A model generated the notes under the pieces. It saw only the letters and a program-made list of their open reading frames with translations, was not told where the DNA came from and made no database searches. The position numbers and the translations under genes were made by a program. From Gelria sp. Kuro-4 (GTDB lineage Bacteria; Bacillota; DTU030; DUMP01), in contig NZ_AP024619.1 of the NCBI RefSeq assembly GCF_019668485.1, forward strand, positions 1,921,001-1,985,000: 64,000 nt of DNA, in the 5' to 3' direction. Of this stretch, positions 1,784 through 19,208 are shown in pieces. How positions within the stretch are numbered: position 1 is the stretch's first letter; each line of letters opens with the position of its first letter.

Positions 1784-1884
1784 ACAAAATCCTCCCCTCA
1801 AATAATAAAGTCAGGCCCCCGGTGAGGATTCCTCGATAACCGTATTCGCTGGCCGGCAGGGAAATCCTGCTGGAGGGCTCAAAC

Positions 1885-2010
1885 ATGTTGGTACTCCTTC
1901 CTATCAAGGACTGGCACGCCCAACGGCCGATCCAACTGTTACCGACGCCATCCTGGATCGTCTCGTTCACAACACCTACAAGACCTTTCTAAAGAGGGAG
2001 TCCATGCAAA
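1885..2010 (+). pseudogene. C-terminal remnant of an IstB-type IS21 helper ATPase
   Basis: The plus strand encodes LPIKDWHA and then, after one frameshift, ADPTVTDAILDRLVHNTYK and ESMQ. This is the characteristic C-terminus of IS21-family IstB (DPTxADAILDRLVHNxxxxxLKGESMR). Nothing recognisable precedes it. It faces the istA remnant on the other strand, whereas istB normally follows istA in the same direction, so the two pieces come from different insertions or from a rearrangement. Confidence 0.7.
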
Positions 2011-3151: not shown

Positions 3152-3165
3152 TTTTATCGTGTACA

Positions 3166-3290
3166 GAACTCATACGCTTCGTTCTTGCTCAGGAACGCCC
3201 GCGTTATGACATATGTACCTGCCACCAGGGGCACTCCGAGCTTGACCCAGGGGAAGTGCGCCGCGGTGGCGATTTAGGCAGGCGGTTAGG
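3166..3290 (-). pseudogene. Remnant 1 of a small membrane protein gene (DUF5658-like)
   Basis: The minus strand encodes IATAAHFPWVKLGVPLVAG and then TYVITRAFLSKNEAY. This is nearly the same as the middle of the frameshifted gene at 9550-9856. An in-frame stop precedes it, and homology ends at the border of the istA remnant. The IS21-type element may have inserted into or beside this gene copy. Confidence 0.65.
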
Positions 3291-3379
3291 AATGCAACTA
3301 TCAGGAAACGGACGATTGTGCTGGTGATTGCTCACTAACCCCGCAACAGACAAACATTCCTCAATTACTGTTCTCTATG

Positions 3380-4276
3380 TTAATGAGCTACCAATTCGTC
3401 CAGCACCTTAACGAACTGGCTGATGAACACTGTTTCTGGTTCCCGGTCAGCGAAATCCTCCCATACTCCCGCTAGCTGACCACTTTCCAGAGAATCTATG
3501 GGGCAGTTGTCGCGCACGAACTGTGCGTCCAGCGTCTGTCCTAAACTGGAAGCCTTCTCTCTCAGGAATGCGAACACATCGTCGGCGAATTCCTTAGTCG
3601 CCCTTTTCAACATCTCGACGCCAGGCTGACCAAACCGCCCTCGGGTAGCATTGAAGACAGAGTAGTACAGTCTAGCGCACAGCGCCCCAAAACCACTTCG
3701 GTGGTCGGGCACAAGGTAATCGTGACGGTGTGATGACAAGTTCGCGTCATCACCTTCTGCAAACGAAGCCCTCCTTTCTTCCTCGTCCATGTTAGCTGGC
3801 CTCAAATAAACCGAGAACCTACAGTGGTCATCCCCATCTTGTGTCAAGGTCTGTGACAGGTTCACCTGCGCTCTGGGAGCATATGCTTGAAACATGGCAT
3901 GGTGGAATTCCTCGCAGTAGATCCGCCCCAGGCTCTTTCCTCCATCCATCTGACTCCAGAGGTCGGCTATCGGACACACAAGTGTCTCCGAAAGTCTCTG
4001 CTGCGGAGTTAGACTTATCTTGTTCCTTCTGAACCTGGGGTCGTTAGGTAGGTCGTAGTAGGTGAACAAGTTATATAGATTGAGCTTTAACCCAGCTCTA
4101 CAATGCTTCTCCCTTAAGGCTTTTCCTCTAATAATCCCATAATCCCTGATAGCTTTACGTAGTACTATCTCTCCATCCAGGGCGTATTCTCCTACCAACC
4201 CTCTGGCCAGGTGATAGTATAGCTTTGACCAGATGTCTTGATAGTTCATCGTGCGTAGAGCCTCACAGTAATCCAC
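3380..4276 (-). CDS. L-2-amino-thiazoline-4-carboxylic acid hydrolase family protein
   Basis: The 298-aa product resembles the ATC_hydrolase family (Pfam PF14196), whose founding activity is opening L-2-amino-thiazoline-4-carboxylate on the way to L-cysteine. Most family members have unknown substrates. Family-like stretches are YYHLARGLVGEYALDGE, VLRKAIRDYGIIRG and DDHCRFSVYLRP, all in the first half. The second half (from about residue 200) has a weaker copy of the same pattern, starting ARLYYSVFNATRGRF. The GTG start at 4276 has AAGGAG upstream. The gene follows a sodium symporter and an M20 amidohydrolase, which fits uptake and hydrolysis of a modified amino acid. The exact substrate is inference. 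Confidence 0.72.
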   Translation of the reverse strand: MDYCEALRTMNYQDIWSKLYYHLARGLVGEYALDGEIVLRKAIRDYGIIRGKALREKHCRAGLKLNLYNLFTYYDLPNDPRFRRNKISLTPQQRLSETLVCPIADLWSQMDGGKSLGRIYCEEFHHAMFQAYAPRAQVNLSQTLTQDGDDHCRFSVYLRPANMDEEERRASFAEGDDANLSSHRHDYLVPDHRSGFGALCARLYYSVFNATRGRFGQPGVEMLKRATKEFADDVFAFLREKASSLGQTLDAQFVRDNCPIDSLESGQLAGVWEDFADREPETVFISQFVKVLDELVAH

Positions 4277-4357
4277 GCCTCACACACTCCTTGTTGGTCT
4301 GAATTATCGGGCTTGTGTACGCTGGCTTGTCCCCAAACTACCGTAGGTCCTAACCGG

Positions 4358-4465
4358 TTACTTCTTGGCGTAATTCTGACGCCATTCCTTCGTTGCAAAC
4401 ACCCACCCCATCCAAATCGAAAATGCGACTAGAGCTGCAGCGTGGACATAGATTACGGCATCCAT
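4358..4465 (-). CDS. Symporter small accessory protein (35 aa)
   Basis: A 35-codon ORF begins with ATG 12 nt after the symporter stop codon and has a perfect AAGGAGG ribosome binding site. The product has one hydrophobic helix (VHAAALVAFSIWMGWVFA) and a basic tail ending YAKK. Very small single-helix proteins encoded next to SSS-family symporters are known as symporter accessory proteins. Position, ribosome binding site and hydrophobicity support it being real. Its exact role, perhaps stability or activity of the partner, is inferred. Confidence 0.75.
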   Translation of the reverse strand: MDAVIYVHAAALVAFSIWMGWVFATKEWRQNYAKK

Positions 4466-4477
4466 CGTCTTCCCTCC

Positions 4478-5869
4478 TTAAGAAGTGGCTCGGATCGGTT
4501 GTGTCTTGCGCATTACAGCCTGAACCATCACAAATACGATCAAGCTTAACAACACCCCTATCACTATGGGAGATTGACCGAGGATGGTCCTGTTGGCTAG
4601 TTTCAAGTACACACCGCTTCCTCCACCCACTATCATTGAGGCAAGGGAGGCTGTTTCAGACTTAGGACCACGTGTGAAAAGTGCAGCCATCATAGGCACG
4701 AAACACCCTCCAACATATGCCGTTGACGCCAGCGTCCACACGCCCATTATCGACTGCACTGTTAGAGCCAGTGTAAGGCCCAGCAGTCCCTGGACAAGGA
4801 CACTCCACTTAGTTACTCGCACCATGTCATTGTCAGCTGCCTTTGGGTTAATGAACTTCTTATACACATCTTCGCTGAAGTTGGTCGCCCCGACGAGCAT
4901 GTAGGAATCTGCAGTGGACATTATTGCCGCTGCCAAAGCAGCAAATATGAGACCACGAACGCCTGTGGGCAGAGTGCTGAGTATAAGCGCCGGAAAGATC
5001 TCATCGCCTGTTGCGCCAGTGACTAGCACTCGAGCAGTAAATCCGCAAATGAAAATCATGGTGAACATGAGGTGCCATGGTATAATAGCCAGGAGATAAC
5101 CAGTCCGGGCAACGTTCTTGTCTTTAGCAGCGTAGAACCGCTGATACCTGTTGCCGTCGATCAGTCCAGGTAAAGACAAAGCAAACGCTAGCTCAACAAT
5201 GGCCTTACCACTCGTCTTTACGCTGAAGTAATCGGCAGGTACGGAGTTGACAATACCAGACCATCCACCGACTTTGTCTAGTGCCAGAACTGTGCATACG
5301 GCCAACCCAATTCCTAAGATGATAAATTGCATAAAGTCAGTCATAGCAACGCCCCACATACCACTTGCATACGTATAGGCAATAATGATGCCCATTGCAA
5401 GTATGGCACCATAAGCAATAGGCCAGCCGGTTATCATACGAATCAATGTTCCCAAAGCAAGAGCCTGTAGGGCAGGACCTGTGCCAAGCATGTAAATCAT
5501 GCTCTCGATTCCACCGATCAGCTGGGCCCATCTTCCATACGTCCTTCCAAGAACATCCGGTGCCGTATAGCCGGCGAACTCCCTGAGACGTTCTGCGAGG
5601 CTTAGAGCTATGATTACCTGGAGCACGTAGAAAAGCAGGATCGACGGGACGAGTAGCAAGCCACCCTTGTATATTGTCCCGACGTATCCCATGGTGGTAC
5701 CACCCCCGACTGACGTGGCTACCATTGTAGCAATATACACCGACAGTCCCAAGGATCTGTCCGCTACCATGAACTCGTCTGCGCTTGTGGCTCGTTTCGA
5801 AAAATACCATCCGATTAGCAGGTTGCTCATTAGATAAACATAGAAGATGGCAGAATCAACGATAGTCAT
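4478..5869 (-). CDS. Sodium:solute symporter (SSS family)
   Basis: The 463-aa integral membrane protein has the SSS family plan with about 13 hydrophobic segments. It starts VDSAIFYVYLMSNLLIGWYF and has the family-like stretch ATMVATSVGGGTTMGYVG near residue 50. ALAAAIMSTADSYMLVGATN lies around residue 315 and matches the sodium-site region of the family. It should import a small organic solute with sodium. The start overlaps the end of the M20 peptidase gene by 14 nt, so the two are translationally coupled. The small ORF at 4358-4465 is its likely partner. Neighbouring hydrolases suggest an amino-acid derivative as substrate. Confidence 0.9.
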   Translation of the reverse strand: MTIVDSAIFYVYLMSNLLIGWYFSKRATSADEFMVADRSLGLSVYIATMVATSVGGGTTMGYVGTIYKGGLLLVPSILLFYVLQVIIALSLAERLREFAGYTAPDVLGRTYGRWAQLIGGIESMIYMLGTGPALQALALGTLIRMITGWPIAYGAILAMGIIIAYTYASGMWGVAMTDFMQFIILGIGLAVCTVLALDKVGGWSGIVNSVPADYFSVKTSGKAIVELAFALSLPGLIDGNRYQRFYAAKDKNVARTGYLLAIIPWHLMFTMIFICGFTARVLVTGATGDEIFPALILSTLPTGVRGLIFAALAAAIMSTADSYMLVGATNFSEDVYKKFINPKAADNDMVRVTKWSVLVQGLLGLTLALTVQSIMGVWTLASTAYVGGCFVPMMAALFTRGPKSETASLASMIVGGGSGVYLKLANRTILGQSPIVIGVLLSLIVFVMVQAVMRKTQPIRATS

Positions 5870-6965
5870 CTCGGTGGCTAACCTCCTTCCAAATGAACTG
5901 GTCTAAGATGCGTCTGTAGATTGCGAGAGAATCAAGCTGGACGTATTCATCGTCTCCGTGGTGGTTTGCCCCAACGGGGCCAAATTCGACAGCAGGGATA
6001 CCCCTGGCAGTGAAGAAGCGGGTGTCAGCGGAGCCATGCTGCGAAACGAATGTGGGATTCGATCCACAAATGTCATACACGCATTGCGCCAGTGTTGTCA
6101 CATGAGGATTATCCTTTGACACGGACACAGGTATCCCCACATTGATTACACGAACCACGGCACCTTGGGCAGCTGAGTTGATCTGCCTCACGATTTCATC
6201 ACAGGACTGGCAGGGTAGATACCGGATGTCTACAGTCAGCATGCACCTATCCGGTACCCTGTTAATGGCGTCTCCGCCCTCGATTCTTGCTAGATTGAGA
6301 GATGGACCTGGATAGCTCTGCGTGCGCTCTTTCATGAACGGCGATTGACGAATACGTTCGTAGGTTTCGAAGGCAGCCTCAATAGCGTTTTCCCCTTCCC
6401 ATGGCTTGCTGCCATGGGCCGACTTGCCCCTAAGCACTATCTCTACCTGCAACACACCTTTTGCCTCCACGGCAATACCGAGATCAGTCGGTTCTCCACA
6501 GATAGCAAATTCCGCCCCGTAACCTTTGTCAAGCAAGTACTGTGTACCGATCTCACCAGCAGTCTCTTCGCTTGGTACAAGCATCAGTCCTACTCCTCGT
6601 CCCCGGCCACTTCCTGCCCAATCGGCCAAGCATCGCATCATGGTAGCAGCCGCCCCAAGCATGTCATATGACCCTCGGGCAAATAATCTGCCGTCTTTCT
6701 CCAATGGTTCGAATTGCTCCGGTTTGGCTGGTACCACGTCAAGGTGGCCGTTGAGCATCACAACAGGTTCTTTCGAGCTCCCCTGGTTTCCGGCGAAACC
6801 CACAAGCATAGGCAGGCCGCAATTCGTTTCCCGGTAGACTCTCACCCCCTTGGCTCTCAGCCAGGATTCCGCAAGGCCGATAGCGTTAATTACTCCTTCT
6901 TCATTATCTGTTCTTGCACGTATGAACGCCTTTGTGAGCTCTAATGTATCCTCCACTGCTATCAC
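5856..6965 (-). CDS. M20-family zinc amidohydrolase/peptidase (ArgE/DapE type)
   Basis: The 369-aa protein carries the di-zinc M20 motifs: LNGHLDVVPA near residue 72, RGSYDML with the bridging aspartate, VPSEETAG with the catalytic glutamate, ICGEPTD, and FGPVGANHHGDDE at the C-terminal metal site. The lid domain contains KGKSAHGS-like residues (RGKSAHGSKPWEGENA). The family removes N-acyl or N-carbamoyl groups, or cleaves dipeptides. It is the first gene of the cluster behind a sigma-54 promoter. The GTG start at 6965 has no strong ribosome binding site, so the GTG four codons on is an alternative. ArgE, DapE or carbamoylase specificity cannot be decided here. Confidence 0.88.
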   Translation of the reverse strand: MIAVEDTLELTKAFIRARTDNEEGVINAIGLAESWLRAKGVRVYRETNCGLPMLVGFAGNQGSSKEPVVMLNGHLDVVPAKPEQFEPLEKDGRLFARGSYDMLGAAATMMRCLADWAGSGRGRGVGLMLVPSEETAGEIGTQYLLDKGYGAEFAICGEPTDLGIAVEAKGVLQVEIVLRGKSAHGSKPWEGENAIEAAFETYERIRQSPFMKERTQSYPGPSLNLARIEGGDAINRVPDRCMLTVDIRYLPCQSCDEIVRQINSAAQGAVVRVINVGIPVSVSKDNPHVTTLAQCVYDICGSNPTFVSQHGSADTRFFTARGIPAVEFGPVGANHHGDDEYVQLDSLAIYRRILDQFIWKEVSHRDDYR

Positions 6966-6996
6966 CGCGCAATAGTGAGGTTGTCATAGCTCCCAT

Positions 6997-7011
6997 GCAA
7001 CTTCTATACCA
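6997..7011 (-). promoter_or_regulatory. Sigma-54 (-24/-12) promoter
   Basis: Reading the minus strand, TGGTATAGAAGTTGC matches the TGGCAC-N5-TTGC sigma-54 consensus, with the invariant GG and GC separated by exactly 10 nt. Transcription would start near 6985, about 20 nt before the M20 start codon. A sigma-54 activator gene lies directly upstream, which strongly supports the call. Confidence 0.8.
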
Positions 7012-7047
7012 GGATACGCGTTTAGCCACACAACGAGTTCTCGCAGG

Positions 7048-7064
7048 CCCAGTGACTCATTGGG
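7048..7064. promoter_or_regulatory. Candidate activator-binding palindrome (UAS)
   Basis: CCCAATGAGTCACTGGG (minus-strand reading) is a 17-nt palindrome with a single mismatched pair. It lies about 37 nt upstream of the -24 element, between the promoter and the 3' end of the sigma-54 activator gene. Enhancer sites for sigma-54 activators are often dyads of this kind. Only one copy was noticed. Confidence 0.5.
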
Positions 7065-7089
7065 TTATAACGGGACGACAATATGGGTG

Positions 7090-9159
7090 TTACTGGTGAT
7101 AATGGGGCAAATGGGGACAGACGGATTCGACAAGATGGACCCCCTTCGCGGTAATCCGTATGCCAGCACGCCCCTTCTGCACCTGCACGTAGTCTGCAAG
7201 GCTCAATTCTTTTATGCAGGTACGAACCCGAGCTTCAGTAATAGGAATGCCATCTGCTTGCATTGCTGCTGCTATTGACCGCCTACCAACGCTTTTTCCC
7301 TGCTGGGCCATCTGGTATGCTTTAGTAAGAACGGAAAGAACATCAGGCTCAATGCTCGCGTTTTGACCAGATTGGTCATTGGAGCAGGAATCCGACATGC
7401 CGGATTTAGCTATGTAGTCGGGTACGTCTTCAACGGTCAAATCAGCATCGGTCATCGACATCATATACTCAATGCAGTTCTCCAGTTCCCTGATGTTACC
7501 TGGCCACCTGTACCGTTTGAACAGGTCTAGCACCATCGGAGACACCTGACGCTCGTCTCCCTTGCGCTTCATAATGTGGGAAACAAGCGCGGGGATGTCA
7601 TCGATACGCTGTGCCAGGGTGGGGAGAGTCAACGGCAGCACGTTGATTCGATAGTAAAGGTCTTTGCGGAACAGCCCTTGCTGCACCATCTCCAGGAGAT
7701 TCTTGTTGGTCGCACATATGATCCTGACATCCACCGGAACCAAGCCTATTCCGCCGACCCTCATCGCTTCCTTTTCTTGTAAAACACGCAGCAACTTGGC
7801 TTGTAGACAAGGTGAGATGTCACCTATCTCGTCAAGAAACACCGTCCCGCAATGCGCCTGCTCGAATAGGCCAGGCTTGCCCCCCTTCTTTGCACCGGTG
7901 AAAGCGCCCTCATCATAGCCAAACAACTCGCTTTCGAGCAAACTGTCAGGCAGTGCGGCACAGTTTATCGCAACGAACGGATAGCGTGCCCTCGCGGACG
8001 CATTGTGAATCGCTTGCGCGAACAATTCTTTGCCCGTACCGCTCTCCCCGCATATCAGCACCGCTCCGTCCGCACGGGCAATGCTCTTGGCCATCGTTAC
8101 GCATTTTCGGATGGCGTCGCTGTTACCAACTATGTCCTCAAAAGAATATTTCGCAATATATCCCGTCCTGCGGAGCGCACGGCGTACCTTGGCATCGAGT
8201 TCCTGTATTTCTTCAGTTTTCCTTAATGTGATAACGCCGGTGGTTTTCTTACCGTCCTGCTCGACCCATGCTTTGTTGACGACGAATGCGTTCCGCCCCA
8301 GGCTGTACACCTCGTCCAGCACATGGTCCCTGGTTCTCAGTGGGAATATAGGTACCACTTCCCAAAGCGTTTTGCCAACTGATTGCCACGCCTCTTTCTT
8401 CAGCAGTTTCTCAGAAGCTTTATTAAAAAGCTTGATCCTCTCATTCTCATCAAATGTGATGATACCTTCTTGCACCAAGTCAAGGACTAGTTCTAACTCC
8501 TTTCTCGTCGCGACAAGGCGGTCAAGTATCGCTAGCAACCCTGGGTTCCTGGGTACAGTTTCCTGGTAGTGTTTAGCTATAGTACGGCTAAGATCGAGGT
8601 CAAGGATTTGGAGCCGAGTAGCAATGTCTAGAAGGGTACTCGCGTCAATAACTCTGTCCCCGATGTTTACTACTTTGGAGACAATGCTCGGTACGCATTG
8701 CATTTCATTAGGGGTGATAGCAATGCCAAGGTTAGGAACCGGGCTGCCTGGATACACTGCAGTCAGCTGGATGTGGCGTGCCCCGAGTTCATAAAGCAAA
8801 GCCACAGTCTCAACGGCAGCTTCCTGCTCGTTGTTTACCAGCATCGCCCTAGTCCTTGATGGCAGATTGATCACCTGTTCCCACCCCTGACGCTGCAGAG
8901 TGCGGCGAATTGCAAGGATGGGAGTCCCCCGGTCTGCTACTCTAGCAACTTCCCCAACCCACCTTTCACCAGGCACGAGAATGAGATCCCCCTTAATAGG
9001 GCAGCAGACGTCTGATACCAGTGGGTGCACTTCGAATTCTACGCGATTCCCCAGGAAAGCTTCAAGCTGAGTTCTCAGTACCTCACCTACCCTCAGTGTG
9101 TACGTGGCAATACATATCTTTGGACGATCGGCAATCTCCACTGTTTTTCCCTTTTTCAT
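7090..9159 (-). CDS. Sigma-54-dependent transcriptional activator with PrpR_N and PAS domains
   Basis: The 689-aa regulator has three recognisable parts. Residues 1-215 resemble the PrpR N-terminal sensory domain. A PAS domain follows (about 225-330, [20 protein letters not shown]). The AAA+ domain spans about 345-575, with Walker A GESGTGKE near 370, the sigma-54 contact loop GAFTGA at 418-423 and WPGNIREL near the end. The C-terminus is not a plain Fis helix-turn-helix. It looks like a winged-helix segment ([18 protein letters not shown] ... GIRITAKGV). It lies upstream of, and in the same direction as, the cluster driven by the sigma-54 promoter at 6997-7011, and is its likely activator. 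The ligand is unknown. Confidence 0.92.
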
Positions 9160-9366
9160 TCCAGACCCCCCAAGTTTCTCACCAGTTCTCTACGGCACAG
9201 CGCTAGGCCCAAAACCGCTCCGCCACAACTACCCGCGAAAACAATGGGAAGAGCAGTGATCTAAGAGTCTGGCCACACGCAAAAGTAGCTTGTTAACAAC
9301 ATAACAAAAGGAACTGGGAACGTTCAGACAAAGGCCAGCTAGAAAGGAACCTGGTTGGATCGTTTG

Positions 9367-9483
9367 CTAATGATCCCAGCCAGCCGCAATGCTGACCACG
9401 AAAAAGGAAGCAATCATCGCTAATCCCACAAGCGCCCCCATTCTTTTATCGGTGAAAGTCGCTTTTGTTTCCTTCACACTCAC
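9367..9483 (-). CDS. Possible 38-aa single-helix membrane protein
   Basis: A short frame with GTG start encodes a charged N-terminus (about 14 residues, SVKETKATFTDKR), a hydrophobic helix (GALVGLAMIASFFVVSIAAG) and a WDH end. The amino-acid pattern looks like a real small membrane protein. The ribosome binding site is weak, and an upstream in-frame GTG is an alternative start. It precedes the sigma-54 activator gene on the same strand. It could be a symporter accessory protein or a remnant of a larger gene. No family is recognised. Confidence 0.4.
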   Translation of the reverse strand: MSVKETKATFTDKRMGALVGLAMIASFFVVSIAAGWDH

Positions 9484-9517
9484 CAGCGCCAGGCTGCCTT
9501 CAAGCACACATTAAGGA

Positions 9518-9537
9518 AATAAACGGGATGTAACCCG
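9518..9537 (-). terminator. Weak hairpin terminator after the DUF5658-like pseudogene
   Basis: On the minus strand ACGGGTTACATCCCGT forms a short hairpin followed by TTATTT. It lies about 15 nt beyond the stop of the reading frame ending at 9550. Confidence 0.4.
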
Positions 9538-9549
9538 TCCCTTTCTCGC

Positions 9550-9850
9550 CTAGGGATTGATTAAAAAGACTTGTGCGACATTGTTAATACATGATAGGGT
9601 GAACACCATCCAGTCGTTGTACCCTTTGTTCTTGCTCAGGAACGCCCGCGCTATGGCATATGTACCTGCGACCTCGGGGCACTCCGAGCTTGATCCAGTG
9701 GGAATACGCCGCAGTGGCGATGTGGGTAACCAGCGGATTGCCCTTGACCAGTCTATGCCGTAATCCGAACACGGTGGAGTAGTAATCCGCCACATTAGCA
9801 AGCAGCATTATCTTCACCGCCTGCGTCAGCTGCTTTTGTCTTGTGCTCAT
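9550..9850 (-). pseudogene. Frameshifted small membrane protein gene (DUF5658-like), copy 2
   Basis: Two overlapping minus-strand frames join to a protein of about 100 aa. The first (from ATG at 9850) reads MSTRQKQLTQAVKIMLLANV, then ADYYSTVFGLRH and EGNPL-like KGNPLV, ending SHWIKLGV. The second continues AGTYAIARAFLSKNKGYNDW and ends INNVAQVFLINP. The D...T...G..E.NPL pattern with about three membrane segments resembles DUF5658-type small membrane proteins. One frameshift near 9690 separates the halves. Two further partial copies lie at 3166-3290 and 10395-10500. The family assignment is tentative, but the repeat relationship is visible directly. Confidence 0.6.
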
Positions 9851-9858
9851 ACCCAACC

Positions 9859-10002
9859 CTATGCTGTTCTGGCTTCCATGCGGCTAAAGAGTTCACGCCG
9901 GAATCGCCTTTCTCCTTCTTCGGAAGCAACAAAAAGCCGGATGCGTTCTACACCCGGCCCAATGTACCCAAAGGATTTGCACTCACATTTCAGCCCACCC
10001 AT
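9859..10002 (-). CDS. Hypothetical 47-aa protein
   Basis: An ATG start with AAGGGA 9 nt upstream opens a 47-codon frame. The product begins MGGLKCECKSFGYIGPGVER and has a charged helical C-terminal half rich in E and R. It ends 8 nt before the start of the frameshifted membrane protein gene, so the two may once have formed an operon. No family is recognised. It sits among remnants, so it could itself be decayed. Confidence 0.35.
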   Translation of the reverse strand: MGGLKCECKSFGYIGPGVERIRLFVASEEGERRFRRELFSRMEARTA

Positions 10003-10019
10003 ATGGCAAATCCCTTGAA

Positions 10020-10240
10020 AAAACGAACGCCTTACTCACACCACTGGTACAGGTAATCATCCATACATCCAAGTGCTTTCGCAAAGGCTTTTGCCTGTAT
10101 ATCTCCCACTCTCTCAGGTTTTTCAGATTCACGCCGAGGATTTGGGCAAATTCCACCTTCATCAGTCCCCTGCACAAGCGCGCCTTTCTTATCCGCTGGC
10201 CCAAGGTCTCCTCTGCCGATTCTCCAAAGCAGCCAAGATA
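10020..10240 (-). pseudogene. Remnant of an Xre-type helix-turn-helix regulator
   Basis: The minus strand encodes ESAEETLGQRIRKARLCRGL followed by FAQILGVNLKNLREWEIYRQKP. This is the shape of an Xre/Cro DNA-binding domain (LGQRIRKARLERGLTQxELAxLLGV...W...). The expected glutamine-rich turn is altered. The frame extends upstream into sequence that does not look coding, so the N-terminus is not credible. Position among other remnants suggests a decayed gene. Confidence 0.5.
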
Positions 10241-10394
10241 AGCTATAGATACCAGAAGGCCCTGCAGTACCACGTCCTGGACCAGGCGATTGAAACCAAG
10301 GGGGAGCGGCAGGGGAAAGCCTCCGTTAAGGCACATTGTGCCCGAGAGCAACACACCGGCCATCTTCTCCCACCGACGATCATCATGGCCCCCA

Positions 10395-10500
10395 CCTTCC
10401 CTTCACTTTTGTCTACTGCCGAATTAATACCCTCGTAGGGTGACCAACATCCAACCGTTGTAGCATTGCTCCTGGAAAAAGCCGCTCTAGGCCCTATGTA
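10395..10500 (-). pseudogene. Remnant 3 of the DUF5658-like small membrane protein gene
   Basis: Minus-strand sequence reads RAAFSRSN, then in another frame AYNGWMLVTL, then INSAV. This parallels RAFLSKNKGYNDWMVFTLSC and INNVAQ of the copy at 9550-9850. The nucleotides around 9599-9628 and 10439-10468 are also visibly alike. Only the C-terminal part remains. Confidence 0.5.
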
Positions 10501-10550
10501 CACGCTGTATACCTTCTGTCTGCCGTTATTTCGCATAACATAGGGCATTT

Positions 10551-10595
10551 CAGGCGCCGTGCAGGCCTTCAGCCCGCACGGCGCCTGGTTTTTTG
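10551..10595 (+). terminator. Strong rho-independent terminator without an obvious gene
   Basis: CAGGCGCCGTGC and its exact complement GCACGGCGCCTG are separated by 13 nt and followed by GTTTTTTG. This is a strong plus-strand terminator. No intact plus-strand gene precedes it, so it may belong to a lost gene or an unannotated small RNA. Confidence 0.75.
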
Positions 10596-10677
10596 TCTTG
10601 AGACCAGAGGAAATAGCCTGTCCTTCATCCGGGAGTGACTCCCCTAGCAACGTCTAGACTTCGGAATTGAGATTCTG

Positions 10678-11067
10678 ATGCACCTTCGTTCTCTCAAGCG
10701 CTCGCGGGCAGAAGTATCCCTCTATGACCCCATTGGCGTGGATAAGGAAGGGAATGAAGTCGTGCTTTTGGACGTGCTCGGTACCAGCGCGGACGTGGTG
10801 GCCGACCTCATTGAGAGCCGGTTTGAAAAAGAAAAGCTCTACGAGAAGATCCGCCGCCTGGGTCGGCGGGAACGCAAGGTCCTGGAGCTCCGTTACGGCC
10901 TTCCTTGCGGCGGCAAGAAAACGCAGCGGGAAATCGCCCGCCTTCTAGGGATCTCCCGCTCCTACGTCTCTCGCATTGAAAAGCGCGCTCTGGCCAAGCT
11001 CTGCGGCGAACTTTTGCGCGAGGAAACGTACCCCTCTCCTTCCAGGAATGCAGTCAAGGGGCGCTGA
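10678..11067 (+). CDS. Sigma-K C-terminal half (regions 3-4 only)
   Basis: The 129-aa product matches the C-terminal half of the late mother-cell sigma factor. It reads MHLRSLKRSRAEVSLYDPIG, then VDKEGNEVVLLDVLG, RRERKVLELRYGLP, and the region 4 helix-turn-helix TQREIARLLGISRSYVSRIE. The -10-recognising region 2 is absent. Homology extends a few codons upstream of the ATG (GIEILMHLR, compare ENEILMHLR in sigma-K) and then stops. That is about where skin-type elements split sigK in Bacillus. The ORF resembles SpoIIIC in content and length. It may be one half of an interrupted sigK, or a truncated duplicate. On its own it is unlikely to be a functional sigma factor. Confidence 0.8.
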   Translation: MHLRSLKRSRAEVSLYDPIGVDKEGNEVVLLDVLGTSADVVADLIESRFEKEKLYEKIRRLGRRERKVLELRYGLPCGGKKTQREIARLLGISRSYVSRIEKRALAKLCGELLREETYPSPSRNAVKGR

Positions 11068-11276: not shown

Positions 11277-11285
11277 CATAATATA
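11277..11285 (+). promoter_or_regulatory. Possible sporulation-type -10 element
   Basis: CATAATATA fits the CATANNNTA -10 pattern of mother-cell sigma factors (sigma-E/sigma-K). It lies about 50 nt upstream of the large surface-protein gene. No clear matching -35 element was found, so this is weak. Confidence 0.25.
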
Positions 11286-11336
11286 CTGTGAGGAATCGAC
11301 TACGGCGCCGGAACACTCCATTGAGGAGGCTGCAAT

Positions 11337-14300
11337 ATGGACGACAGCTCTGTGTCGCTTGCCACATCTAGCCCCACGGCCTACGGGAACCTCGCTCTCG
11401 ACGTCCGGGACGTGCTGACGGGAGTCCAGGTACCGGAGTTCCGTTATCTCGTGAACGAGGACAACGTGGGCGATCCCCAAGTTGAACTGCCCGAAGACGA
11501 GCGCGACCCCAGCCTGTTTCCCTCCTTGAAACCGGGTGCGAGTTACAGCCCTGTTGTGCTGGCAGGGGAAGCCCGGGGGATGTCTACGGCGATATTTGCC
11601 CTGCCTGCCGGCAAGTACTTGGTTACCGTCCTGGCCCCGGGCTTTAAACTGGGTGGGACATGGGTGACGGTACCGCCCGGTGCGGACGTGACGGCCGAGG
11701 TCAAGCTCCATCCTCATCCCCTACCCCTGTCGCGCATACGGGTGCACGTTTTTCACGACAACCACCCGGTGAACGGCGAAGACGATTTTCCGTTGGAGAT
11801 GGGGCTGGAAGGCTTTCGCATTACCGTTACTGATGCCGTCGGAGAAGTCACCGTCGACTATTTCGGCAACCCGCTCGGCACCGCGTACGAGCGTACCCCG
11901 GAGGGAAATATCGTCTTGGATGAGTTCGGCCGGCCGGTCCCTATTCCGGGCACGGGCGGGGTGGTTCTCACCGATGCCGCCGGGAACGCGCTCATCGATA
12001 ATCTGGCTCCCGGTAAGTACGGGGTCCAGGCCATTCCGCCGGATGGGACGGACTGGATCCAAACCACTACAATTGAGGGAACCCATGTCATCGATGCTTG
12101 GATTGAAGAAGGCAACGACGGCTACAGCCCGCGGGAAGGCTTTCAGGCCCCCTTGGTCTGGATAGGATTCGTGCGGCCGCTGGATTTCCCGTCGCCCGGG
12201 TCAGAGAACACCGGTACGATAAAAGGGCGAGTGCGCACGATCATCGAGTTTATACCCCCCTTTAAACCGTTAACCTTGGGAGAGCCGGTAGACCGCCCTT
12301 GGCTGGCCCTCAGCGACATCGGCGCCGACGACCAGCAGGTCTACACCGGGCGGGGCGACAGCGACGGCACCTTTCTCATTCCCAACGTACCGCCGGGCGT
12401 GTACCAGCTCGCCATCTGGGATGAGCCGCTGGATCACATCATTTCCTTCCGCACAGTGGAGGTGGGGCCGAACCAAACCGTGGATCTCGGTGAAATCGGC
12501 ATTCCGCGCTGGTTTGGGTATATTCAGGGCACGGTATTTATCGACCCCGACGGCGACGGCGTGCGGGAAGAGGGCGAACCGGGCATCCCCAACGTCGCCG
12601 TCAAGACGCGCTTCAAAGACGGCAGCGTGCAGTACACCACAGTGACCGACCCGCGGGGAGACTATCGGCTGGACGAAGTGTTCGAGCTGGAGCGTTTCGC
12701 CGTGGCGGAAGTCGGCTTCACCCGCCTGGCCCGCACCGGAGCCACCGGCACGCCGGACTTCGGCATTCCCCTGGTTGACCCCGCCAACCCGGGCGGGCTG
12801 TGCCGCGATGAGGCCGGGCATTACGTGCGCTGCCCGGAAACCTATCCGAAAGCGCTTACCCTGGCCGAGCTCACCTGGGCGGCGAAGACGAACCGGATCG
12901 ACTGGGGTAAGAGGCCCTACATGGCGGCAGAAAACGGCGGCATCTCCGGCATGGTGTACTACGCCACCATGCGCAATGAAACCGACCCCCGGTATGCGAT
13001 AGCCGAAGACTACGAACCCGGCATACCCGCCGTAACGCTCAATCTTTACCGAGCCGACGTTGACCCGGAAACCGGTCAGGTGGTCCAAGGAAAGCTCATC
13101 AACACGACGATCACCGATGCGTGGGAACACCCCACCGGCTGCATAGACCACGACGGCAATTCCGTGAACTGCACAGAGGTTCCGAATATCTCCAACCAGA
13201 TCCGCCCGGGCGTTTTTGACGGAAGCTATGCCTTTGAGACTTATTGGGACCCCTTTTACGGTGCGCCCGGTGCCGTGGAAAAACCGCTTCCGCCTGGCTC
13301 TTACATCGTCGAGGTCGTTCCCCCGCCCGGCTATAAAACCCTGGGCGAAGGCGGGTCCACCAACAAGGAGCAGGGTGACGTCTTTGTCCCCTCTCCCAGG
13401 GCAGACCGGTTGCCGGGTCGGCCTGAAGGCAGCCAACTGCGCATCGCCCCGCCCCCGTTTTATTCACCACCGCCTCCGTTCTTTGAGTTCACCAAAAGGG
13501 TAGTGCGGGTGGCAAACGGGCTTAATGCCACCGCCGACTTCTTCTTGTACACCGACGTCCCCGTCCCGGGCCGGATAGTCGGTTTCCTGCTGGACGACGT
13601 AAACCTGGAGACAGATCCGGCTTTCATTTACTACGGCGAAAAGCGCGGCATTCCGAATACGCCGGTGGGCATCAGAGACTTCACCGGCCGCCTGCTGACC
13701 ACGGTGCATTCGGATATCAACGGGATATTCGAAGTACTGTTGCCGTCCACCTATACCTGTAACCTTCCCACTCCCTCCGGCATCGCTCCCGGCATGTACC
13801 AGGTCGTCGGGAACGATCCGGGGGACCCGGACAGCCCCAACCCGAACTACAACCCCAACTACCAGTCGCTGAAAATGGTCTTCGACGTTTGGCCGGGTAA
13901 GACCACTTACGCCGACGTAGCTCTCTTCCCGATAACCGCCTTTGTCGCCGCCCCGGGGGTGCAGTTTGCCCAACCGCCTCAGTGCCGGGTGAGTCCGGAC
14001 ACACCGCAGATCTTCCGGGTAAGCCAAGTGTACGTCGACCTGCTCTCCCTCGATGACGGGCCCAGGACTTTCGACATCCTCGGCACGGGTTTTGGGGACG
14101 CGCCCGGCAGGGTCACCTTAAACGGCCAGGCCATCCCGGTGCTGGAGTGGACGCCCTTCCACGTAAGAGCTCTGGTTCCATATGGTTTTCAGCCGGCCGG
14201 CCCGGCGCAACTTTCCCTGACCAACGCCGCGGGCAAAGGGAGCTGCACCGGTATCACCATGCACCTCTTAATGGAAGGCGTCTACCGGCCCAACTTGGCC

Positions 14301-15941
14301 GTCGTCGCCCAGGACGGGACCGGCCGCTACGGCAGCATTCAGGCGGCCATCGACAACGAACCAGACGGCACGGTGGTGGTGGTTAAGCCGGGTATCTACT
14401 ATGAAAGCCCGATCCTCTACAAGAACATCAAGCTCCAGGGCATGGGCAGCGGAGGGATCAGGGCGGACGGTTCCGGCGTGCAGGGCTCGGTTATTGACGG
14501 CAGGTTTTTCCTCTCTTACCAGCAAGAGTGGCTGGCAAAGCTGGAAAGCATCGATTTTGACGGGCCGGAACAGGTGCCGCCCGGCCAGGTTAAAGATATA
14601 AGCAGCGGCCAAGCGATCACAGTAGTAGCTAAGTCCGGAGCCTTCCGCGCCGATTTCGCGCCGCAGATAGACGGCTTTACCATTACCGGCACCCGGGGCG
14701 AAGACGCCGGCGGGATCTACATCCATGCCCACGCTGATTACCTGGTCGTCAGCAACAACATCATCCAGAGCAACGGGGGAGGCTTCGGCGGCGGCATCAC
14801 CATCGGCCGGGCTTACGCGGGCGACAACTACAATGCTAACATCCATATCCATCACAACCGCGTGTTGAACAACGGCGGTATCAGCCTGGCGGGAGGAATA
14901 GGCATCTTTAACGGGGCACGGAACTACCATATCGAGTACAACGATATCTGCGGCAATTACTCGGCGGAATACGGCGGCGGCATCTCCCACTACGGTTACA
15001 GCCCTGGCGGGAAAATCCACCACAACCGCGTGCTCTTTAACGCCTCCTTCGACGAAGGAGGGGGCATCTTCATCGGCGGCGAACAACCGGTACCGCCCGC
15101 GACGCTGACCAGGGGGTCCGGGGAAGTTGAGATTTTCAACAACCTGATCCAGGGCAACATCGCCAACGACGACGGCGGCGGCATCCGCCTCCTGCAGCCT
15201 TTGGACTTCCGGATCAACATTTATAACAACATCATCGCCAACAACGTCTCCACCGACCTGGGCGGCGGTCTGGCCCTCGACGATGCGTCCAATGTCGCCA
15301 TCTTTAACAACACCATCGCCAAGAATATCAGCACCGCCACCGCCGAGGACAGCGACGGCCGGCCCCACGGTGCCGGCTTGGTAAGCGAAGCGAACAGCGC
15401 CGCCTTCCAGGCTTACCTTCCGCCGGGCTCGCCGGCTTTCAGCAACCCGGTTCTTTTCAACAACATCTTCTGGGATAACCGGGCGGGCACTTACAACCAG
15501 TCCCTTAACGGCGGCCGGGGCGGTATAGCCGGGATCGGCGCTCCCGGGGACCCGGAACCGGTTAGGGTGCTGGACCTGGAGGTCTTCGGCGCTCCCGGAA
15601 AGCTCAATCCCGAATACTGCAGCCTGTCCCAACCATATGAGGGCGGCAGCAACAATCTTACCGGCAACCCCGCGTTTGTAGCGGAATACGACACCCGCCT
15701 TACGGCCGTGGCCTTCAATATGGAACCCGACTTCCGCTCGGTCAAAATAGTGACGGCCGTCCCCGAACTCGAAGGAGATTACCACTTGAAGAGCACCTCG
15801 CCGGTCATCGACCGGGGCGCCGCACAGGTCGTAAGGGATAAAGAAGTGTTTTCCGCCCCCGCCGACGATTTTGACGGCCACCGGAGGCCCCAGGGGGCGG
15901 GGTACGACATCGGCGCCGACGAAGTGGTAGCTGCGGGTTAG
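11337..15941 (+). CDS. Large multidomain beta-helix/SdrD-B-like surface-type protein
   Basis: The 1534-aa protein has a string of immunoglobulin-like/carboxypeptidase-regulatory and SdrD-B-like modules in its N-terminal 870 residues (for example GTVFIDPDGDGVREEGEPGI near 400). An IPT/TIG-like domain follows at about 884-965 (FDILGTGFGDAPGRVTLNG). A right-handed parallel beta-helix covers about 985-1520, beginning GRYGSIQAAIDNEPDGTVVV. Its repeats are rich in NNIIxxN and GGGI turns. There is no signal peptide, membrane segment or LPXTG motif. The ATG at 11337 has GAGGAGG 7 nt upstream. It heads a plus-strand operon with three multicopper-oxidase paralogues, the first 28 nt downstream. A self-assembling surface, perhaps spore-surface, protein is my inference. 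Confidence 0.8.
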   Translation: MDDSSVSLATSSPTAYGNLALDVRDVLTGVQVPEFRYLVNEDNVGDPQVELPEDERDPSLFPSLKPGASYSPVVLAGEARGMSTAIFALPAGKYLVTVLAPGFKLGGTWVTVPPGADVTAEVKLHPHPLPLSRIRVHVFHDNHPVNGEDDFPLEMGLEGFRITVTDAVGEVTVDYFGNPLGTAYERTPEGNIVLDEFGRPVPIPGTGGVVLTDAAGNALIDNLAPGKYGVQAIPPDGTDWIQTTTIEGTHVIDAWIEEGNDGYSPREGFQAPLVWIGFVRPLDFPSPGSENTGTIKGRVRTIIEFIPPFKPLTLGEPVDRPWLALSDIGADDQQVYTGRGDSDGTFLIPNVPPGVYQLAIWDEPLDHIISFRTVEVGPNQTVDLGEIGIPRWFGYIQGTVFIDPDGDGVREEGEPGIPNVAVKTRFKDGSVQYTTVTDPRGDYRLDEVFELERFAVAEVGFTRLARTGATGTPDFGIPLVDPANPGGLCRDEAGHYVRCPETYPKALTLAELTWAAKTNRIDWGKRPYMAAENGGISGMVYYATMRNETDPRYAIAEDYEPGIPAVTLNLYRADVDPETGQVVQGKLINTTITDAWEHPTGCIDHDGNSVNCTEVPNISNQIRPGVFDGSYAFETYWDPFYGAPGAVEKPLPPGSYIVEVVPPPGYKTLGEGGSTNKEQGDVFVPSPRADRLPGRPEGSQLRIAPPPFYSPPPPFFEFTKRVVRVANGLNATADFFLYTDVPVPGRIVGFLLDDVNLETDPAFIYYGEKRGIPNTPVGIRDFTGRLLTTVHSDINGIFEVLLPSTYTCNLPTPSGIAPGMYQVVGNDPGDPDSPNPNYNPNYQSLKMVFDVWPGKTTYADVALFPITAFVAAPGVQFAQPPQCRVSPDTPQIFRVSQVYVDLLSLDDGPRTFDILGTGFGDAPGRVTLNGQAIPVLEWTPFHVRALVPYGFQPAGPAQLSLTNAAGKGSCTGITMHLLMEGVYRPNLAVVAQDGTGRYGSIQAAIDNEPDGTVVVVKPGIYYESPILYKNIKLQGMGSGGIRADGSGVQGSVIDGRFFLSYQQEWLAKLESIDFDGPEQVPPGQVKDISSGQAITVVAKSGAFRADFAPQIDGFTITGTRGEDAGGIYIHAHADYLVVSNNIIQSNGGGFGGGITIGRAYAGDNYNANIHIHHNRVLNNGGISLAGGIGIFNGARNYHIEYNDICGNYSAEYGGGISHYGYSPGGKIHHNRVLFNASFDEGGGIFIGGEQPVPPATLTRGSGEVEIFNNLIQGNIANDDGGGIRLLQPLDFRINIYNNIIANNVSTDLGGGLALDDASNVAIFNNTIAKNISTATAEDSDGRPHGAGLVSEANSAAFQAYLPPGSPAFSNPVLFNNIFWDNRAGTYNQSLNGGRGGIAGIGAPGDPEPVRVLDLEVFGAPGKLNPEYCSLSQPYEGGSNNLTGNPAFVAEYDTRLTAVAFNMEPDFRSVKIVTAVPELEGDYHLKSTSPVIDRGAAQVVRDKEVFSAPADDFDGHRRPQGAGYDIGADEVVAAG

Positions 15942-15969
15942 CACGTGGACGAGAAAGGAGCTTACGGCC

Positions 15970-16971
15970 ATGGCCAGAATCGATAAGCGCTTCGGGGCCA
16001 CCGACGGCTGGATTAAGATGCCCGACGGCACCGAGCATTATATCTTCGGCTTCGTCGACCTCACCGGCGTTCCCGAAGAACGGCCGGCGCTCTACCGCGG
16101 CCGAGCCACCCTGCCGGGGCCTTTACTCGAGGTCGACGAAGGGGATGAGGTCTACCTTACCCTGACCAACCTGGGTTTTCCGGGAAGGCCGGAACTCGAC
16201 GACACGCACACCATCCACTGGCACGGCTTCCCCAACCAGATACCGCTGTGGGACGGGGTGCCGGAGACCTCCATCTCCGTGCCCGTCGGCCGAAGTTTCA
16301 CCTATTACTTTAAGCCGGCCGACCCCGGCACTTACATGTATCATTGCCATTTCGAGCCGGTCGAACACATTCAGATGGGAATGCTGGGGCCTTTGATCGT
16401 CCGGCCGGCCCTGGAAAAAAACCCCGCCTTCGCCGGCCGGCTTTTTGCCTACAACGACACGGCTACGGAGTACCAGCGTGAGGTCATCCTTCTGCTCACG
16501 GAGCTGGACGCCGTCGCCCACAGCCGGGTGGCCGCAGCCCAACCCTACGACTGGACGGAGTACCGGCCGCACTATTGGCTGATCAGCGGGCGGAGTTACC
16601 CGGACACCGTAAAGCCCGCCGACGACCCCTCCTTACCCGGCCAGCCCTTCTCTGCGCTCATCGCCGCGCAGCCGGGGGAAAAAGTGCTCCTGCGCTTCAT
16701 CAACCTCGGTTATGAGCTGCACACCTTACAGCTCTTGGGCCTACCCCTCAGGATAATCGGGCAGGACGCCAAGCTCCTGCGCGGATACCACGGGGAAGAC
16801 CTGAGCCATTCGGCAACAGGCCTCACCCTTGCCGCCGGGCAGACCGTCGACGCTCTGGTTACCGCTTCCCGCCCGGGGATTTATCCTCTTTATAACCGCA
16901 GCTACCATAAAAACACCAATGCCGGGCTGACGTTCGGCGGCATGGTCACCGAGTTCAGAGTGGTGCCGTAA
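15970..16971 (+). CDS. Multicopper oxidase paralogue 1, carrying the N-terminal copper motifs
   Basis: The 333-aa protein is built of cupredoxin domains. Domain 1 has HWHG (His83, His85) and HCHFEPVEHIQMGM (His125-Cys126-His127, His133, Met138). The C-terminal domain lacks the usual HPxHxHG and HCH motifs; the corresponding position reads GYELHTLQLLG. A complete three-domain oxidase is usually longer, so this product alone cannot form the standard four-copper set unless it assembles with partners. No signal peptide is visible. AGAAAGGAG upstream is a good ribosome binding site. The next two genes are paralogues, and the second has the missing C-terminal motifs. Confidence 0.85.
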   Translation: MARIDKRFGATDGWIKMPDGTEHYIFGFVDLTGVPEERPALYRGRATLPGPLLEVDEGDEVYLTLTNLGFPGRPELDDTHTIHWHGFPNQIPLWDGVPETSISVPVGRSFTYYFKPADPGTYMYHCHFEPVEHIQMGMLGPLIVRPALEKNPAFAGRLFAYNDTATEYQREVILLLTELDAVAHSRVAAAQPYDWTEYRPHYWLISGRSYPDTVKPADDPSLPGQPFSALIAAQPGEKVLLRFINLGYELHTLQLLGLPLRIIGQDAKLLRGYHGEDLSHSATGLTLAAGQTVDALVTASRPGIYPLYNRSYHKNTNAGLTFGGMVTEFRVVP

Positions 16972-17026
16972 CTGTGGCCGCCCGGCTTCCCGCCGGGTAG
17001 AATTTAATCGTCTTGGGGGAAAGAAA

Positions 17027-18217
17027 ATGCCGACTGTAGAGCTTTGGGCCAAAGACGGTTACGTAAGTACTCCCGACGGCAACAGCATCTATTTTTGGGG
17101 TTTTGCGCGCAGCCGTGAAGGCAAGGCCCAGTTGCCGGGGCCCGCGATAATCGCCAGGCAGGGAGAACCCCTCACCGTCAGGCTGGTCAACCTTCTGCCG
17201 GAACCGGTTTCGCTTTCCTTCCCAGGGCAAATCGGGGTGACGGTGGACGGAAGCCCGGTTAGACCTCAGTACGAAGGCGGAAAGTTGGTCTCCTTCACCA
17301 ACCACGCCCTCCCCGGAGAAAGCGTGTCCTACACTCTTGCGCCAACCAGCCCGGGCACGTTCCTTTACGAAAGCGGGTCGAATCCGCCCAAGCAGGTACC
17401 CTTGGGCCTGTACGGGGCTCTGGTGGTGAGGCCCGCCGACTATAATCCGGAAATCAAGGAGTACAAGACGGCCTACGGTTACGGGACCGATACGGCCTTC
17501 GACCGTGAGTACCTCTTAATCACGGGCGAAATCGACCCTGAGTTCCACCAGGCCGCAGCCGAAGGCCGCCCTTACGAGCTAAGCCGCTACAAACCCCGCT
17601 ACTGGACGCTCAACGGCCGCTCGGCGCCGGACACCATGCTCCCGGACAGCGCCGCCCACCTTCCGCATCAACCCTACGGCGCCATGATCATGGCCGAACC
17701 CGGAGAAAAGGTGCTGCTGCGGTACATCGGCGCGGGAACCGCGCACCACCCGCTGCACCCGCACGGCAACCACACGCGGGTCCTGGCCCTGGACGGGAGG
17801 CTGCTCCGGAACGGCGCCTTCGACCGCTCCTACGAGCGGTTTACGGTTCTCGTCGGCGCCGGTCAGACCTGTGACCAGATTTACCAGTGGTTCGGCTTGG
17901 GCTATTCGCCGGAAAACCCGATCCCCACAGTTCTACCCAACCTGCGCAACCTGGGCATCGGCGACGCCGGTTGGACCATGTGGAGCGGGAGTCCCTATCT
18001 CGGCCTCAAAGGAGACATCCCCCAGGGCGTAGTCTCCTTCAACGAGGAAGGTGAGTACTATTTCATGTTGCATTCCCACCAAGAGTTTCAGATAACCAAC
18101 TGGGGGGAATTTCCCGGCGGCCTGATGACCATGATCGCCGTTCATCCGCATTTAAGTCCCGATAGGGGCGTGTTGAAAGAGAGCGAAAGGGGTACGGGCT
18201 ATGGGAATAGTGTTTAG
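17027..18217 (+). CDS. Multicopper oxidase paralogue 2, carrying the C-terminal copper motifs
   Basis: The 396-aa product aligns along its length with its two neighbours. In the N-terminal domain HWHG is replaced by FPGQIG, and HCH...H...GM is replaced by YESGSNPPKQVPLGL, so those copper sites are gone. The C-terminal half keeps HHPLHPHGNH (His240, 241, 244, 246) and FMLHSHQEFQITNWGEFPGG (His349, His351), which are trinuclear-type ligands. The motif set is thus complementary to that of the upstream gene. It starts ATG after a 55-nt gap with GGGGGAAAG and overlaps the third paralogue by 17 nt. No signal peptide is seen. A hetero-oligomeric oxidase is inferred. Confidence 0.85.
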   Translation: MPTVELWAKDGYVSTPDGNSIYFWGFARSREGKAQLPGPAIIARQGEPLTVRLVNLLPEPVSLSFPGQIGVTVDGSPVRPQYEGGKLVSFTNHALPGESVSYTLAPTSPGTFLYESGSNPPKQVPLGLYGALVVRPADYNPEIKEYKTAYGYGTDTAFDREYLLITGEIDPEFHQAAAEGRPYELSRYKPRYWTLNGRSAPDTMLPDSAAHLPHQPYGAMIMAEPGEKVLLRYIGAGTAHHPLHPHGNHTRVLALDGRLLRNGAFDRSYERFTVLVGAGQTCDQIYQWFGLGYSPENPIPTVLPNLRNLGIGDAGWTMWSGSPYLGLKGDIPQGVVSFNEEGEYYFMLHSHQEFQITNWGEFPGGLMTMIAVHPHLSPDRGVLKESERGTGYGNSV

Positions 18218-19208
18218 CAGCCTGCAAGTCGTACCCGGATTGATAACCCTGGCCGGAAAGAGCATCCCTTTTTGGGGTTTTTCGTACGCTTACCATCCGC
18301 GGCCGCGGCCGCAGCTGCCCGGCCCTATTATCCAGGCGACGGCCGGCGACTATATAAGAATGGCGTTGGTCGTCCGGCCCAACGCTCCCTTCGGGGAAGA
18401 TCTGTCCATCATTTTCCCGGGGCAGGAAGGCGTTGAGGTGCGCAGTATTCCCCGCTTTCCGTTTCGGCCCGTACAGCCGCAATATGCCGATGGAAAAATG
18501 GTTTCTTTGACCGACTACCTGGCCGCGGGTGAGATCGGGGCGATCGAGTACAGATTCCGAGCCGTTCGCTCCGGCATTTATCTCTACGAGAGCGGTACGA
18601 ATTCGGCCGAACAAGTGCAAATGGGCCTCTACGGAGTAATAGTAGTGCGGCCGGTAGGTTACGGCCAACCGTGGCATCCAGATTTCCGCACGGCGTACGG
18701 CCGGGATACTGCGTCCAGGCACGATATCGAGAAAATCCTGGTCTTGGGCGAAATCGACAGCGCCATGCACAACAGCGTCGTTTCAAGGGCCGACTACAAC
18801 CTGCTCGACTTCCGCCCCGACTGCTGGGTGATCAACGGCCGCTCCTTTCCACACAGCATCGCCCCGGACGACGATTCCAGCCAGCCTTACGGCTCGGCGA
18901 TAACGTGCCGCGTGGGGCAGCGGGTGCTTCTGCGAATCCTGAATGCCGGCTTTCAAGCCCACACCCTTGCCCTCGGGGCCCTGACCGGCAGGGTAATAGC
19001 CGAAGATGGTTATCCGCTCAAGATCGGCAGTAGCGACGCCACCTACGAGAAAACGGCGGTGACCGTCGGGCCCGGCCGAAGCGTCGATCTCCTTGTTACC
19101 CCTCCTCATCCGGGCGAATTCTATGTCTACGACCGGGAATACCGACACCTGGTAAGTGACGACCGATTTCCCGGCGGAATGATGACAAAAATCACAGTTA
19201 CTCCTTGA
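18201..19208 (+). CDS. Multicopper oxidase paralogue 3, copper motifs lost
   Basis: The 335-aa protein keeps the cupredoxin framework shared with its neighbours (for example QLPGPIIQATAGD, LLRILNAGFQAHTLALGAL, DRFPGGMMTKITV). The copper motifs are all replaced: IIFPGQEG for HWHG, YESGTNSAEQVQMGL for the HCH...H...GM segment, and neither HPxHPHG nor HSH is present in the C-terminal part. It is therefore very unlikely to be an oxidase itself. A structural or assembly role with the other two is the simplest reading. ATG start with GAAAGGGG upstream, inside the end of the preceding gene. Confidence 0.8.
   Translation: MGIVFSSLQVVPGLITLAGKSIPFWGFSYAYHPRPRPQLPGPIIQATAGDYIRMALVVRPNAPFGEDLSIIFPGQEGVEVRSIPRFPFRPVQPQYADGKMVSLTDYLAAGEIGAIEYRFRAVRSGIYLYESGTNSAEQVQMGLYGVIVVRPVGYGQPWHPDFRTAYGRDTASRHDIEKILVLGEIDSAMHNSVVSRADYNLLDFRPDCWVINGRSFPHSIAPDDDSSQPYGSAITCRVGQRVLLRILNAGFQAHTLALGALTGRVIAEDGYPLKIGSSDATYEKTAVTVGPGRSVDLLVTPPHPGEFYVYDREYRHLVSDDRFPGGMMTKITVTP

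Follow-up and report, generated by a model that had tools for sequence, protein, structure and literature searches.

A putative split-site multicopper oxidase on a beta-helix scaffold, encoded without export signals in Gelria sp. Kuro-4 and other endospore-forming Bacillota

Spore oxidases (CotA and Mnx) and two-domain multicopper oxidases are already known. CotA is a single-chain three-domain laccase. It is located in the spore coat (PMC3192119), and Mn oxidation in Bacillus is carried out by spores, not by vegetative cells, with MnxG as one polypeptide found together with MnxE3F3 (PMC5622069). Two-domain laccases form homotrimers in which the active site lies between monomers (PMC3192119), and six-domain blue proteins are thought to derive from a triplicated two-domain protein (PMC3600357). 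Here we analyzed a 64,000-nt stretch of the genome of Gelria sp. Kuro-4 (one contig of 2.88 Mb; G000:C1:1921001-1985000, hereafter the window), which carries a four-gene locus for a beta-helix protein (BH) and three two-cupredoxin proteins of the multicopper oxidase type (MCO1, MCO2, and MCO3). We put at about 0.7 the probability that the four products form a heteromeric oxidase with a split copper site and BH as its scaffold, and that the mother cell produces this complex and deposits it on the spore, a location that we infer.

MCO1 (window positions 15970..16971, + strand, 333 aa), MCO2 (17027..18217, + strand, 396 aa), and MCO3 (18201..19208, + strand, 335 aa) each match Cu-oxidase models. 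The copper ligands were examined in alignments of 12-13 orthologs, plus 25-26 relatives from several phyla. Domain 1 of MCO1 carries the type-1 copper ligands (H80, C126, H133, and M138) and trinuclear ligands (H83/H85 and H125/H127) in the motifs HTIHWHG and YHCHFEPVEHIQMGM; the ligand positions of its domain 2 are blank across the alignments. MCO2 has lost the ligands of domain 1 and holds the other trinuclear half in domain 2 (HPLHPHG with H244/H246 and LHSH with H349/H351), while MCO3 is devoid of copper ligands in both domains. This partition, with MCO1 domain 1 and MCO2 domain 2 kept and the reciprocal sites blank, is conserved across orthologs and phyla. Hidden Markov model alignments place the MCO1 ligands in domain 1 and the MCO2 ligands in domain 2 of the two-domain oxidase 3g5w, and two AlphaFold models (for MCO1 and MCO2; predicted local distance difference test scores 87.7 and 80.6) gave 2zwn and 3g5w as best or near-best Foldseek matches. 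The latter two, a metagenome laccase (2zwn) and the Nitrosomonas europaea blue copper oxidase (3g5w), we take to be type-C two-domain oxidases. They have their fold in common with MCO1 and MCO2, as well as the motifs HTIHWHG / YHCH..EH..M in domain 1 and HxxHxHG / HxH in domain 2. Type-C oxidases, however, have in each chain the type-1 site (domain 1) and a trinuclear half-site in either domain, and form homotrimers, whereas here the half-sites are found on two gene products and the third paralogue is copper-free. Each MCO does score as a two-domain cupredoxin protein, and the predicted folds of MCO1 and MCO2 are those of homo-trimeric oxidases, as would be expected of three independent homo-trimeric enzymes encoded side by side; this arrangement is scarcely credible and already disfavoured, since none of the three proteins has both half-sites and the losses are complementary and conserved across phyla.

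The simplest reading of these sequences is that the three proteins make up one enzyme, with a four-copper site shared by MCO1 and MCO2 plus a copper-less MCO3, which looks like an unfused ceruloplasmin. The initial annotation had described an operonic oxidase trio. The operonic part stands, with four co-directional open reading frames (ORFs), intergenic gaps of 28 and 55 bp, and one overlap; the trio is better described as one split enzyme and a copper-less subunit. We infer complementary loss after duplication, and a hetero-trimer with the site across the MCO1/MCO2 interface. Ceruloplasmin and Bacillus MnxG likewise consist of three two-domain units with one trinuclear site, as proposed here, but their six cupredoxin domains are in one chain, whereas in the relatives examined MCO1, MCO2, and MCO3 each have an ORF of their own, and the BH scaffold comes in addition. 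The triplication scheme (PMC3600357) predicts an ancestor of this type, and the operon would correspond to an unfused triplication. The four-gene unit holds no small gene, although the MnxE and MnxF sequences themselves were not searched for. Among single-chain relatives, L097 and L094, for example, retain all four HxH motifs in one protein.

Many of the proteins share only 55-75% identity, yet most operons retain all copper ligands, so that the copper site must be under selection. MCO2 is gone in L045/L070 (CSMAG_113) and L077 (Ammonifex SURF_55); the MCO1 ligands have decayed there, the expected outcome if the copper site is shared, and MCO1 and MCO3 are kept. The copper ligands are also partly decayed in Desulfocucumis (L074). 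The persistence of MCO1 and MCO3 beyond MCO2 and the ligands, together with the partial decay in Desulfocucumis, would fit a spore layer without catalysis in which the cupredoxins are surface building blocks and the copper site is incidental or lost. We consider this quite improbable, given the ligand retention in most operons at such identities. The loci without MCO2 do hint at a structural role that outlasts catalysis.

The putative scaffold BH (11337..15941, + strand, 1,534 aa) begins with SdrD_B and carboxypeptidase-regulatory-like sequence (its first half gave SdrD_B, CarboxypepD_reg, and fn3_3 domain matches), continues as a right-handed parallel beta-helix, and ends in a choice-of-anchor Q C-terminus that matches above the cut-off. 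Beta_helix (PF13229) was matched in 6 of 10 orthologous BH C-terminal halves, and the second half in alignment displays the recurring N-x-I and GGG-type turns of a right-handed beta-helix. Thus, of the domains named in the initial annotation, SdrD_B, beta-helix, and cupredoxin were recovered; the IPT domain found no match in the window BH at E<=0.1, and residues ~895-975 resemble one by eye. Sequence search returned no solved structure related to the beta-helix half. The connection between scaffold and oxidase is indicated by gene fusion: in Paraburkholderia largidicola (AP028202; L115) and on the Cupriavidus metallidurans CH34 megaplasmid (NC_007974; L114) the gene order is MCO1, MCO2, and then an MCO3-BH fusion encoding a chain of ~2,700 aa, with MCO3 N-terminal and BH after it. 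A fusion of this kind argues well for contact between MCO3 and BH. MCO3 is most likely a copper-free docking subunit on the BH scaffold, and probably tethers the oxidase to it. The Paraburkholderia products of the module are annotated just as "hypothetical protein".

The module is widespread. A scan of 84,980 species yielded 53 loci; it is complete or nearly so in ~30 Bacillota (Moorella, Desulfallas, Desulfoscipio, Desulfocucumis, Thermincola, Tepidibacillus, and metagenome-assembled genomes, MAGs) and is also found in Chloroflexota, Myxococcota, Pseudomonadota, Acidobacteriota, and Actinomycetota. The four window proteins lack signal peptides, as first reported. Every one of the four ORFs has a Shine-Dalgarno sequence at its start (for BH, GAGGAGG at 11323..11329, + strand), and the nearest in-frame stops lie 4 (BH), 13 (MCO1), 32 (MCO2), and 8 (MCO3) codons upstream. 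A signal peptide hidden by a wrong start codon was excluded, since nothing hydrophobic is encoded between the stops and the ORF starts, and therefore no signal peptide was overlooked. None of 107 proteins of the Bacillota group has a hydrophobic N-terminal segment. Outside Bacillota such a segment was found in 9/9 BH, 16/16 MCO2, and 13/14 MCO3 proteins (the remaining one is just under the threshold), and in 8/16 MCO1 proteins, most of the others having twin-arginine (Tat) motifs such as SRRDFIKLGGG. All four proteins are signal-less in endospore-formers, and nowhere else among the tested genomes. The signal-less operons form one clade (100% support in the Shimodaira-Hasegawa approximate likelihood ratio test, SH-aLRT), which amounts to one change on the unrooted tree, and the occurrence of signal-bearing forms in as many as five phyla points to signals having been lost rather than gained. 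Tepidibacillus (Bacilli) falls among Clostridia-type lineages inside the signal-less clade, and this placement, together with differing neighbour genes, suggests horizontal spread of the signal-less operon. CotA and Mnx are multicopper oxidases on spores, as the module is proposed to be, and like them it is without export signal in endospore formers; CotA (three-domain, single-chain) and Mnx, however, belong to Bacillus, whereas this module consists of two-domain split proteins and is clostridial. A signal-less single-gene oxidase of 468-492 aa was also observed in SpoIVA-bearing genomes (L094, Fictibacillus nanhaiensis; L095, Clostridium sp. CX1; and L096); its HxH set is complete in Fictibacillus and partly lost in L095 and L096.

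Next, the sequences upstream of BH were compared. A promoter-like element had been pointed out ahead of the window operon, and there is indeed a sigma-K/E -10-like element, CATAATATA (CATANNNTA), at 11277..11285 (+ strand), 60 nt before the BH start (-45 to -62 in relatives), but the sigma-K -35 'AC' is absent at the right spacing. In 10 of 27 signal-less operons, CATANNNT was found at a distance of 45-62 nt upstream of the BH start, compared with 0.79 in shuffled sequences (0/1000 as high) and 3/170 control ORFs. The sigma-K form AC-N16/17-CATANNNT occurs upstream of 9 of the 27 signal-less operons, against 0.77 in shuffles (none of 1000 reached that count) and 5 of 170 control ORFs; none of the 11 signal-bearing operons has it. 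A sigma-E-type -35 spacing was not significant in the signal-less upstreams, no sigma-A-type pattern was found in those tested, and no structured RNA was found near the operon in Rfam. These counts make a strong but not final case that a sigma-K-type promoter is over-represented upstream of signal-less operons. A Coat_F gene, which we count in favour of a spore role, lies 122 bp from the operon in Desulfallas and 3.9 kb away in Moorella.

Association with sporulation genes was assessed in two samples, 299 genomes of the phylum and 34 further named genomes (18 signal-less and 16 signal-bearing). Co-occurrence with sporulation genes, proposed initially as a check, was observed: all 14 operon carriers of the phylum sample have SpoIVA and sigma-K matches, and among the further genomes sigma-E was found in 18/18 signal-less vs 0/16 signal-bearing genomes and SpoIVA in 14/18 vs 0/16. 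The Fisher value for this signal-less vs signal-bearing comparison (4.5e-10) is overstated because the tree shows the signals to have been lost just once. Confinement of the cluster to non-sporulating lineages, which the initial annotation named as a refuting outcome, was not seen; the signal-less clusters are in genomes with sigma-E or SpoIVA/sigma-K. Four SpoIVA-negative carriers (L053, L068, L074, and L077) were considered as non-sporulators and rejected as such, all four having sigma-E. An "Actinobacteria" MAG (L079) was similarly dismissed as a non-spore exception on finding SpoIVA and sigma-E; it groups with Desulforudis-type Bacillota, and its Actinobacteria title is probably wrong.

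A vegetative protein, one that stays in the cytoplasm or leaves the cell by lysis or some route needing no signal, and that serves in copper or oxygen defence, has to be weighed here. The absence of signal peptides shows only that Sec and Tat are unused, and with SpoIVA in 248 of the 299 phylum genomes co-occurrence is weak evidence. Nevertheless we regard a vegetative role as unlikely: the versions in other phyla are exported, the signals are missing jointly in all four genes, which stayed intact in many families, and the upstreams that show the sigma-K-type enrichment show no sigma-A-type pattern. Several points do weigh against the spore-surface oxidase. In the phylum sample the association of operon and SpoIVA is weak (14/14 vs 234/285, Fisher p 0.068), and the sporulation association is one evolutionary observation plus retention. 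The full AC-N16/17-CATANNNT pattern is missing in 18 of 27 operons, the window copy included; the promoter patterns were picked after a first look at the sequences, and the set includes closely related rows. As a test for signal peptides, hydrophobicity of the N-terminal extension is a proxy, and none of the genes flanking the operon is widely common to relatives. Taken with these points, the proposed spore-surface oxidase layer of the initial annotation is the best-supported reading, backed by signal loss, sporulation genes, and promoter enrichment, with its "trio" corrected as above.

The oxidase on the spore surface may have arisen and may work as follows. MCO1, MCO2, and MCO3 would have arisen by duplication and divergence of a type-C-like two-domain multicopper oxidase subunit, and their hetero-trimer would form a pseudo-six-cupredoxin ring like an unfused ceruloplasmin. 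Only one of its three subunit interfaces would have stayed catalytic, with MCO1 domain 1 providing the type-1 copper and four trinuclear histidines and MCO2 domain 2 the other four. The ancestral form was presumably exported, MCO1 by Tat and the others by Sec, and in endospore-forming Bacillota all four export signals would have been lost. The operon would be transcribed in the mother cell late in sporulation under sigma-K, perhaps sigma-E, and the proteins would fold in the mother-cell cytoplasm, where copper would be inserted. MCO1, MCO2, and MCO3 would then assemble on BH through MCO3, and the complex would settle on the forespore surface, as CotA and Mnx do in Bacillus. On the released spore, electrons from the substrate may enter the type-1 copper of MCO1, and O2 may be reduced to water at the MCO1/MCO2 interface. 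The substrate may be Mn(II), Fe(II), or a phenolic compound; of these, Mn(II) would be our first guess, from the parallel with Mnx. The wider scenario, for which we see roughly even odds, is that an exported ceruloplasmin-like heteromer was turned into a spore-surface structure by the loss of four signals and by mother-cell control, and spread among anaerobic endospore-formers, whose spores would have an O2-consuming, perhaps Mn/Fe-oxidising, layer.

If true, strict anaerobes (Moorella, Desulfallas, Desulfoscipio, and Thermincola) would have an oxygen-using enzyme on their spores, which are able to persist and disperse in oxic places; this bears on how anaerobe spores survive and on the oxidation of metals by dormant spores. 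With its split site, the module would be an example from nature of the step from two to six domains that has been proposed in ceruloplasmin evolution, complementary loss having made a heteromer obligatory. The module, existing both with and without signals, lends itself to a clean comparison for the recruitment of a secreted complex to the spore surface. We found no account of the four-gene module, of a split-site oxidase on a beta-helix scaffold, or of an export-to-sporulation switch in anaerobes in the literature searched, which covered few subscription journals.

The region upstream of the operon also carries part of a sigma-K gene. The fragment reported there is real (E 1e-45 to 1e-46 with SigK models) but is not debris: it is the 3' half of an interrupted sigK (10675..11067, + strand), 270 bp upstream of BH. 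SigK matches lie on the same strand at 1911484-1911828 (5' half) and 1931669-1932013 (3' half, window 10669-11013), separated by an element of 19,873 bp (G000:C1:1911802-1931674); its right part is window 1..10674, and its left end and the 5' half of sigK precede the window. When the 19,873 bp are cut out in silico, a 245-aa SigK frame is regained, and its match to the uninterrupted sigK of a sister species runs through the junction. A 504-aa large serine recombinase adjoins the 5' half, before the window. Skin elements interrupt sigK in B. subtilis and C. difficile (PMC5025042), and the split sigK, the serine recombinase beside its 5' half, and the intact joined frame are likewise found in the window genome; by these features the element is skin-like. 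The likeness concerns just the sequence upstream of the operon, and the readable cargo (a sodium symporter, an M20 peptidase, a sigma-54 regulator, an OPT transporter, an amidohydrolase/D-aminoacylase-like protein, and a beta-lactamase-like protein) appears metabolic rather than phage-like. After excision sigK would sit 270 bp upstream of BH. The sigma-K piece was considered as part of the conserved unit of the operon and rejected, as the operons of relatives have no sigma homologue next to them; the proximity of sigK is therefore particular to the window genome.

Split sigK genes were also seen in other operon carriers, with gaps of ~3.7 kb (G070:C1:1687410-1691783) and ~39 kb (G178:C5:209546-248764), and split SigK/SigE-like halves in G305, G313, and G328. 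The uninterrupted sigK of the sister species (G021:C12:69037-69684; L112) diverges at its 3' end, where it runs into a stop (EKRAI*) close to the edge of the contig, possibly a rearrangement or a contig-edge artefact. Within the sigK element, two small adjacent ORFs (L108:8612-9389) resemble by eye a HEPN/nucleotidyltransferase-like pair. Downstream of BH-MCO1-MCO2-MCO3, pyrimidine genes begin at 19579. Further along, window positions 27987-34000 hold D-aminoacylase-like amidohydrolases in tandem, at 27987 and 31581 with a third, shortened one at 33176, and a symporter at 30028; these amidohydrolases resemble in kind the one within the sigK element.

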